64,000 bases of DNA. It comes from Akkermansiaceae bacterium. Lineage in GTDB: Bacteria > Verrucomicrobiota > Verrucomicrobiia > Verrucomicrobiales > Akkermansiaceae. Position 1 is the stretch's first letter, and every line of letters begins with the position of its first letter. The notes under the pieces are model-generated. The model made no database searches, had not been told where the DNA came from, and saw only the letters and a list, made by a program, of their open reading frames with translations. The position numbers were made by a program, and so were the translations under genes. Of this stretch, positions 32,475-35,139 are shown in pieces. The DNA is taken from NCBI GenBank assembly GCA_021200315.1, contig JAJQGU010000044.1, forward strand, positions 1 through 64,000, in the 5' to 3' direction.

Positions 32475-33305
32475 ATGTGGAGCTGGCTGGCTGAGCACGG
32501 AGAACAAATACGCATCGTCTTTGTGGCCGTCTGCGAGATCCTGATCTTGTGGATCGCCTTTTACCAAGCCTATCGGGCTTTTCACGCCACGAGAGGAGCC
32601 AACATTCTGCTGGGCTTGATTTCCTGCCTGATGGGCTTGACCATCCTGACTGTCCTGCTGCAGCTGACTGTACTCTCTTGGTTGTTGAAAAGCCTGTTTA
32701 CACCCGCTCTGCTGATTGCGCTGGTGGTGATCTTTCAGCCGGAGCTGCGAATGGCGCTGGCCAGAATGGGACGCCTGCGCGACGTGTCCGTATTCGGTTT
32801 CACCATTTGGGGCAAAACGGCTGAAAGTGATTTTGTGGAAAAACTTGCAGCAGGAGTCACGAATCTCTCCAACAAACGATATGGAGCGCTCATCGCGCTG
32901 AGGCGCTCCAACGAGCTCACCTCCATCATCGAAACGGGCACACTCATTGACGGAATCTTCACTCGAGAGCTGATCGGCACCATTTTTTTCCCAAAGACCC
33001 CCCTGCATGACGGAGGAGTCATCTTGGATCACGAACGCATCGTGGCGGCCGCCTGCGTCTTCCCCGTCTCGGCCAAAGAGATGAAAGACCGCTCCATTGG
33101 CCTGCGCCACCGGGCAGCAGTAGGGCTCAGCGAAGAATCCGACGCCGTAGTGATCGTCATCTCGGAGGAAACCGGTGCAGTTTCCCTCTCGTTTGGCGGA
33201 CGTCTCGAACGCAATGTCGATATCAATTACTTGAAAACGCGATTGAAAGAACTCCTGTATGAGCACACCCTCCCTCAAAAAACTCAAGATGTTGCTCAGC
33301 CGTAA
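32475..33305 (+). CDS. cdaA: diadenylate cyclase CdaA
   Basis: Membrane-bound cyclase making c-di-AMP from two ATP. From the ATG at 32475 it has 276 residues. Three membrane segments fill about residues 10-85, followed by the DAC domain with PLHDGGVIL (the usual DGA is DGG) and the RHR motif in GLRHRAAVGLSEESDAVV. A longer start inside the promoter is unlikely. Its 3' end overlaps a small ORF that resembles the membrane anchor of CdaR, the usual partner of CdaA. Confidence 0.93.
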   Translation: MWSWLAEHGEQIRIVFVAVCEILILWIAFYQAYRAFHATRGANILLGLISCLMGLTILTVLLQLTVLSWLLKSLFTPALLIALVVIFQPELRMALARMGRLRDVSVFGFTIWGKTAESDFVEKLAAGVTNLSNKRYGALIALRRSNELTSIIETGTLIDGIFTRELIGTIFFPKTPLHDGGVILDHERIVAAACVFPVSAKEMKDRSIGLRHRAAVGLSEESDAVVIVISEETGAVSLSFGGRLERNVDINYLKTRLKELLYEHTLPQKTQDVAQP

Positions 33306-33384
33306 CTGGCTGCCCAAATTCATCTGTCTAGTGTTGGCCATCATCGTCTGGTGCGCCATTAAATACATATACACAGCACGCTGA
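33259..33384 (+). CDS. 41-residue membrane protein resembling a CdaR (YbbR) anchor without YbbR domains
   Basis: Short ORF that starts within cdaA in another frame (47-base overlap) and ends with TGA at 33384. The product has a basic N terminus (STPSLKKLKMLLSRN) and one membrane helix (WLPKFICLVLAIIVWCAIKY). CdaR proteins, encoded right after cdaA in many bacteria, begin with just such a basic-then-W-helix anchor, followed by YbbR repeats that are absent here. An internal ATG at 33289 would give 31 residues. Synteny and topology support it as real, but the overlap and small size leave doubt. Confidence 0.55.
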   Translation: MSTPSLKKLKMLLSRNWLPKFICLVLAIIVWCAIKYIYTAR

Positions 33385-33409: not shown

Positions 33410-34042
33410 ATGAATTTCTTCATTACAGGAACCGACACAGAGATAGGGAAAACTTATGTCACTGAGCTGTTGCTGAGAGATTTGCGTAAGCGAGGAATTG
33501 CGGCTGCTGGCTACAAACCCATCGCCTGCGGCGACCGACAGGACGCCCGCCGCCTGCGCGCCGCCTGCGCCCCCTCTCTAAGCCTCGACGAAATCAATCC
33601 GCTGTATCTCCGTACACCGACAGCCCCATGCGTGGCGGCGGCGATCGAGCGGCAGTCCATCGATCTCTCCATGCTCGCAGCGGGTTATGAATACTTGGCC
33701 GCCCGTCACGAGCAAGTGCTTGTGGAAGGCGTCGGCGGGTGGGAAGTGCCTCTGTGCCCCGGCAAGACCGTGGCGGATCTCGCCCGAATGCTTGATCTCC
33801 CAGTCCTCCTCGTGGTGGGCAACCGACTGGGTGCGGTGAATCACGCCCTTCTCACGGTCAAATCCATCGCCTCCTCCGGTCTCGCCTGCCGGGGGATTAT
33901 CCTCAATCACTCCGGAGACGAATGGGATACGGCAGCCCTCACCAACAAAGGGCTCATCGAAGAATTTTCAAAGCTTCCCGTCCTCGCGGAACTCATCCAC
34001 GGCCAAGATGAAATCGACAGCCAAGCCATTCTTGGCGCGTGA
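33410..34042 (+). CDS. bioD: dethiobiotin synthetase
   Basis: ATP-dependent ligase that closes the ureido ring of dethiobiotin, next to last in biotin synthesis. It has 210 residues. The P loop is GTDTEIGKTYV at the N terminus, with GYKPIACG and VEGVGGWEVPL downstream. No other bio gene lies nearby. The ATG at 33410 starts the family domain directly; an upstream start four codons earlier has no support. Confidence 0.93.
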   Translation: MNFFITGTDTEIGKTYVTELLLRDLRKRGIAAAGYKPIACGDRQDARRLRAACAPSLSLDEINPLYLRTPTAPCVAAAIERQSIDLSMLAAGYEYLAARHEQVLVEGVGGWEVPLCPGKTVADLARMLDLPVLLVVGNRLGAVNHALLTVKSIASSGLACRGIILNHSGDEWDTAALTNKGLIEEFSKLPVLAELIHGQDEIDSQAILGA

Positions 34043-34095: not shown

Positions 34096-35139
34096 CTACC
34101 CCAGCAGCGTCCAGAATGGCAGGGTATCCTTCCCCCGCACGCCGCGCAAGTTAATGTAACGCGTACGCAGCAGAGAACTGTCCCGATGACCGAGTTGAAG
34201 CTGAAGGGAGGGCAGATCATGATAAGTCTTGGCATGATAGCTCGCAAAGGTATGACGCAAGACGTCTGGCACCCAGCGGCGGAATCCCGCCTCCCGCCGC
34301 AAGGCGCTCCATCGCTTCTCCCATTGAGGCGGACAAAGAAGGGTTCTTTTCCCGCTTCTGGACGAAATGAGCCGCCACTGCCTCCGCAACATGCGCTGCA
34401 GGGAGGGGCAAAGCGCCACTTGCCGACCGCCGCCCGTCTTGCTGTGGCAAGGAGCGAGCAAAAGCACATCCTCTTCCCAAGAAATATCCTCCCATCGCAG
34501 GCGTGCCACTTCTCCCGGCCGCACTCCGGCAAAAAGCATGAGGCCCAGCGCCGGCAAACAATCTCGGAAAGCGGGGCGTTTCGCCGTCTGAACCAAACGC
34601 CTGCATTCACGCAGAGTAAGAGGCAGAATCTCCTTTTCGCAGACACGGGGCATCTCAATGGTCGACACAGGATTCTGATTGCACCACCCCTGCTGTATCC
34701 CAAAGGCAAAGATGCTGTGTAGAACCGCCCTCCCCTTGCGGAAGCTGTGTGCGCTGTTTCCGAAGACTTCTTCCAGCGCACCTCGGCACTCCATCGTGCT
34801 GATTCCCCTCAACGGCCTGTCGGCCAATTCGGAAAAACGCAATAACCGCCCGATATAACTGCGCAAATCTCGGCGCGTCGTCGGTCTGCGTTCCGATCTG
34901 CGTTCGTAGCTCTTCCACGCTGCCTCTGCAAAAGACACTGTGCGCTCCTGATTTCGAACGGCAACGATGCCCTCCCTGATGACTCGGCGTACTTCACGCA
35001 CAAGGCCCTCCCTTCCCTGAAACGCTATTACCCGCAGTTCCGGCATCTCTTCCACGCATTCCACGATCAGACGGGCCGCATCCAGCTCCGTCAAAGGCAG
35101 CTCCCGCAGCAACATGTCTATGCTCTTATTCTTTCTCAT
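34096..35139 (-). CDS. solitary tyrosine recombinase, copy 1
   Basis: Phage-integrase-family site-specific recombinase of 347 residues. It has a SAM-like N-terminal DNA-binding region, then a catalytic domain with Arg207 (GVRPGEV), Lys234 (HSKTGG), Arg295 (DVLRHTFASYHAK), His318 (LGHRD) and nucleophile Tyr328 (LLRTRY). The usual first His of the HxxR box is Asp292. It has a close paralogue at 54839-55873 with the same key residues. No cargo, excisionase or attachment repeat is visible around it. It starts about 465 bases upstream of rpoD, pointing the other way. Target sites are unknown. Confidence 0.9.
   Translation of the reverse strand: MRKNKSIDMLLRELPLTELDAARLIVECVEEMPELRVIAFQGREGLVREVRRVIREGIVAVRNQERTVSFAEAAWKSYERRSERRPTTRRDLRSYIGRLLRFSELADRPLRGISTMECRGALEEVFGNSAHSFRKGRAVLHSIFAFGIQQGWCNQNPVSTIEMPRVCEKEILPLTLRECRRLVQTAKRPAFRDCLPALGLMLFAGVRPGEVARLRWEDISWEEDVLLLAPCHSKTGGGRQVALCPSLQRMLRRQWRLISSRSGKRTLLCPPQWEKRWSALRREAGFRRWVPDVLRHTFASYHAKTYHDLPSLQLQLGHRDSSLLRTRYINLRGVRGKDTLPFWTLLG

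Follow-up and report, generated by a model that had tools for sequence, protein, structure and literature searches.

In this study, the small open reading frame (ORF) behind cdaA in the window, that is, in the whole 64,000-nucleotide stretch of DNA analysed, is best explained as a real gene for a CdaR consisting of its membrane anchor only (mini-CdaR), the product of which would be an intramembrane subunit of the diadenylate cyclase CdaA that determines how the enzyme assembles or oligomerizes and, through this, how active it is; we give this reading a probability of roughly 0.7. The assignment as an anchor-only CdaR follows from the combination of purifying selection, anchor homology, gene order, natural fusions, intermediate forms, co-occurrence with membrane CdaA, and the finding that no YbbR domain is present in the whole window genome. 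The features of the locus are collected in Table 1.

Table 1. Position of the putative mini-CdaR gene and its neighbours in the window.
Feature	Position	Strand	Remarks
mini-CdaR, 41-aa single-pass membrane microprotein, predicted anchor-only CdaR	33259..33384	+	ATG 33259, stop TGA 33382-33384
cdaA, membrane diadenylate cyclase (CdaA_N + DAC), 276 aa	32475..33305	+	Pfam
cdaA-free part of the mini-CdaR gene	33306..33384	+	Encodes the greater part of the helix plus the short outer end
bioD, dethiobiotin synthetase-like, AAA_26	33410..34042	+	Pfam; stands where glmM follows mini-CdaR in Chthoniobacterales
lpxC-fabZ	Before cdaA in gene order	-	
Integrase-like gene (Phage_integrase)	34096-35139	-	Directly after bioD

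The mini-CdaR ORF starts within cdaA in the +1 frame, overlaps its 3' end by 47 nt and ends 79 nt past the cdaA stop codon. Its 41 codons translate to MSTPSLKKLKMLLSRNWLPKFICLVLAIIVWCAIKYIYTAR, which displays a basic N-terminal segment, the residues N16-W17-x-x-K20 and a hydrophobic helix at about 21-36 that includes A27 and W31. Scans with Pfam and NCBIfam returned no model matching the ORF, and the product of the window cdaA was recognized by Pfam DAC (2.3e-37) and CdaA_N (1.1e-5). The window genome is that of a 2.2-Mb Akkermansia; judged by CdaA, at 68% identity, A. glycaniphila is its closest relative in the sample. Most other Akkermansia mini-CdaRs, including that of A. glycaniphila, have a C-terminal tail in common, EIRRSHP or DDIRLSMPE, which is itself conserved. 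The window copy stops before this tail, and same-genus relatives are usually about 10-25 residues longer, so that it is short even among mini-CdaRs; the missing tail could signify relaxed constraint in the window species. Genes of such small size that overlap cdaA are probably missed easily in annotation.

The profile of mini-CdaR, made of 25 rows with the window ORF among them, found exactly one match in the whole window genome, at the end of cdaA (E 2.6e-15). A mini-type ORF was likewise noticed at the cdaA end in all of the 111 loci first fetched (a few genomes being counted twice), which range from Akkermansia to Chthoniobacterales. Outside the overlap with cdaA, pN/pS for mini-CdaR was 0.095 among seven A. 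muciniphila-like loci, and the helix in the A. muciniphila group recorded 0 nonsynonymous against 87 synonymous differences, summed over pairs; in a second Akkermansia group of three loci, dN/dS was below 0.05. Selection of this kind on the amino-acid sequence marks the ORF as a functional protein-coding gene among the relatives of A. muciniphila, and even the 0.9-Mb genomes of the window's class (G073, G094) retain it. As far as sequence comparison reaches, the mini-CdaR ORF is a real gene under strong purifying selection. The earlier note had placed a 41-residue ORF with an anchor-like helix in the position of cdaR behind cdaA, and the single genome-wide match together with the low pN/pS bears this out; its suggestion to look for the ORF behind cdaA in relatives was answered by the 111 loci, and stop codons in the relatives' ORF, which it had named as the refuting observation, were examined and the ORF was not refuted.

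With regard to gene order, cdaA, mini-CdaR and glmM follow one another in Chthoniobacterales, and of the 123 mini-CdaR matches in the larger class sample for which the place of cdaA is listed, 120 adjoin cdaA. In one genus (g151; G280, G257, G312), mini-CdaR lies away from cdaA on another contig, directly before glmM where the locus was read. In a different genus (g20; L174, L175, L176, L258, L262), the distance between cdaA and mini-CdaR lies between about 0.1 and about 1.2 kb, depending on the species. Natural fusions of CdaA with the bare anchor were found in one Akkermansia (L172) and, within the same order, in a member of a different family (L204), and fusions of CdaA, anchor and YbbR in L328 and L137. 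The first of the latter two, from genome G333, is one ORF of 402 aa that encodes CdaA, the anchor and a YbbR-like stretch, and the other sampled members of the family to which this genome belongs are without CdaA. No recognizable mini-CdaR was detected near cdaA in families f68 and f74 (L278-L280, L285, L286, L305, L314) or in part of f65, which counts against the main reading; the CdaA of f68 and f74 is divergent.

These observations bear on two readings in which the peptide itself would do nothing. Should mini-CdaR be a decaying, functionless remnant of cdaR, the absence of the genus-wide tail from the window copy and the gradual reduction visible in one-domain forms would be accounted for; strong purifying selection, persistence in every CdaA-bearing class genome of the phylum sample and in the 0.9-Mb genomes, and survival after separation from cdaA nevertheless render this very improbable. 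We consider it slightly less probable still that the ORF merely couples the translation of cdaA to that of the next gene, bioD or glmM, with the peptide being irrelevant, because the amino acids are constrained and the nucleotides are not, and because the sequence persists both where it is fused to CdaA and where it is separated from cdaA, even though the ORF does overlap the cdaA 3' end and the differing next genes make a general coupling role conceivable.

The homology of mini-CdaR to the CdaR anchor was assessed with hhalign against 49 full-length CdaRs, all from Verrucomicrobiota and thus from the same phylum as mini-CdaR, giving a probability of 96.8% and a score of 58.2, with mini-CdaR 5-40 placed on CdaR 3-38. 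Among shuffled controls, the best score was 18.7 (of 100) for core columns and 36.2 (of 100) for helix-only columns. In the phylum sample, drawn from Verrucomicrobiota, the mini-CdaR profile also matches, in 17 genomes outside the window's class, the N-terminus of long CdaR-type ORFs that adjoin cdaA. YbbR proteins occur in 85 of the 145 genomes of this sample, nearly all being long ORFs that adjoin cdaA, and in none of its 49 genomes of the window's class. The larger class sample disclosed YbbR above the cut-off in 27 of 246 genomes, mostly as CdaRs of one or two domains and about 130-255 aa behind cdaA, and with these two- and one-YbbR forms, which occur in sister families, the CdaRs make up a series graded down to the bare anchor. 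Convergence is therefore improbable as an explanation, that is, a small membrane protein of other origin that replaced CdaR and resembles its anchor only by being a hydrophobic helix: short hydrophobic sequences do align easily, and the mini-CdaRs are only about 30% identical among themselves, but the score of 58.2 stands well above what permuting the helix columns alone yields, the profile matches only genes linked to cdaA or glmM wherever linkage was checkable, and the one- and two-YbbR forms bridge mini-CdaR and CdaR.

In terms of family membership, PF07949 (CdaR/YbbR family) is defined by at least one YbbR domain, which mini-CdaR lacks, and mini-CdaR does carry an N-terminal anchor homologous to that of CdaR and the place behind cdaA and before glmM, with bioD next instead in Akkermansia. 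Read from its sequence, mini-CdaR is not a member by the defining domain and is a CdaR by descent of its anchor and by position. The proposal of the earlier note that CdaR is here reduced to its membrane anchor is hence upheld by profile homology, by the order cdaA-mini-CdaR-glmM, by the intermediate forms that keep one or two YbbRs, by the CdaA-mini-CdaR fusions and by a genome free of YbbR.

The two- and one-YbbR forms suggest that the outer domains were shed stepwise, this being the direction they imply. On the CdaA tree, which is unrooted and unsure in its deep branches, at least three changes separate YbbR-bearing and mini-CdaR forms, and one bare form (L283) is placed among the one-domain forms. 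With the direction so taken, shedding probably happened more than once in Verrucomicrobiota. At two loci of the Akkermansia family (L215, L219; G325, G348), a charged tail of about 60 residues with a heptad-like pattern takes the place of YbbR behind the anchor.

Among the phylum-sample genomes that belong to the window's class, mini-CdaR was present in all 26 genomes with membrane CdaA and in none of the 23 without it, counts that are not independent events since the genomes are related. This co-occurrence would tie mini-CdaR functionally to the membrane CdaA. Almost all of the CdaA-less class genomes (22/23) carry a different DAC protein, about 450-490 aa long. Three such substitute cyclases were read (L330, L331, L332), and the one scanned (L330) has the architecture PTS_EIIA_2-DacZ_P-DAC with no CdaA membrane domain; this soluble-looking cyclase might link c-di-AMP to PTS phosphorylation.

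Previous findings revealed that CdaR binds CdaA via the transmembrane domains (PMC10243994, PMC8573169, PMC8316131), and TM1 of CdaA has been proposed as the contact for CdaR (PMC10243994). If the contact is made in this manner, mini-CdaR keeps exactly the part that makes it. K+R in mini-CdaR amount to 3.8 on the N side against 1.4 on the C side, and the fusions agree with this bias in that their anchor begins on the cytoplasmic side, where the cyclase domain lies; charge and fusions together point to an N-terminus inside, one helix and a short tail outside. Mean-field DCA was applied to 248 pairs of CdaA and anchor, 220 of them distinct (effective number about 122), and yielded a single outlier, CdaA F29 with mini-CdaR C23, at about 7.8 SD. 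F29 lies close to the inner end of TM1, and C23 close to that of the mini-CdaR helix, a geometry that is sensible for an antiparallel pair. The remaining top pairs display no enrichment in the membrane part of CdaA (13 of 40, with 34% expected), and a phylogenetically independent, tree-based paired test was not significant (median p 0.125). For these two reasons, covariation is not used as proof here, and the pairing of CdaA residue 29 with mini-CdaR residue 23 is a suggestive sign of contact. The published CdaA-CdaR contact, the co-occurrence and the covariation, taken together, indicate that mini-CdaR probably touches CdaA in the membrane, a contact that the earlier note had thought possible; we likewise expect it to be translated in the window species and to affect CdaA activity.

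In the mechanism we propose, mini-CdaR would be made together with CdaA, and its helix and N-W-x-x-K motif would pack onto the transmembrane domain of CdaA, with TM1 as the likeliest site. It would then act as a constitutive intramembrane subunit that fixes how CdaA assembles in the membrane or oligomerizes, and hence its activity, regulation by outer signals having been lost along with any external sensor. Having no outer domain, mini-CdaR would not sense the periplasm or wall as YbbR domains may, so that it would be the role of the anchor which selection keeps. A different possibility, which we hold to be rather doubtful and yet the most serious competitor, is that mini-CdaR dynamically inhibits or activates the catalytic step, dosed by its expression, instead of being a constitutive structural subunit. 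CdaR has been reported both as activator and as repressor (PMC8573169), c-di-AMP is higher in S. aureus that has lost ybbR (PMC11520302), and it also rises in E. coli when cdaA and cdaR of B. subtilis are expressed there together (PMC8316131), all of which favor such a dynamic role. Mini-CdaR, however, has no outer domain and so no obvious signal input, and a constitutive subunit accounts no less well for the near-perfect co-occurrence and the fusions.

How CdaR acts on CdaA is called unclear or unknown in published work (PMC8573169, PMC10243994). The anchor is kept alone behind cdaA in Akkermansia and many relatives, which suggests that it does an important part of the job of CdaR. We lean slightly towards the wider view that the core function of CdaR lies in the transmembrane helix alone, the YbbR domains having been shed repeatedly across the class and a CdaA subunit of 40-60 residues kept, which would make CdaA a two-component membrane enzyme whose activity a bare helix sets. 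In a CdaR that is minimal by nature, the role of the anchor is separated from that of YbbR, and such a protein offers a tool of 41-60 residues for testing how CdaR acts. In cancer immunotherapy, c-di-AMP from Akkermansia reportedly provides a key stimulus to the immune system (Lam et al. 2021, cited after PMC10243994). At the Akkermansia cdaA locus, mini-CdaR would be the sole dedicated CdaA partner seen. Our literature search, with subscription papers mostly outside its reach, found no description of a CdaR without YbbR domains.

KdpF, AcrZ and MgtS are single-pass membrane microproteins that tune membrane proteins, a short helix acting in the membrane on a larger partner. Mini-CdaR would resemble them in this general mode of action, and its putative partner is a nucleotide cyclase. 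In Firmicutes the operon is cdaA-cdaR-glmM (PMC8573169), and the Firmicute CdaR (YbbR), like mini-CdaR, has a single N-terminal anchor and stands directly behind cdaA, with glmM next as for mini-CdaR in Chthoniobacterales; it differs in having several hundred residues with YbbR, whereas mini-CdaR has 41-110 aa and no YbbR and is followed in Akkermansia by bioD, not glmM. The CdaA-CdaR fusions of some streptococci carry the anchor behind the cytoplasmic cyclase domain, as do all four fusions found here (L172, L204, L328, L137), but they are described as large (PMC10243994), while L172 and L204 carry the bare anchor. The full-length CdaRs of other Verrucomicrobiota classes and the one- and two-YbbR CdaRs of sister families keep the outer domains that mini-CdaR is without and share its place and anchor motif, mini-CdaR corresponding to their first 35-40 residues.
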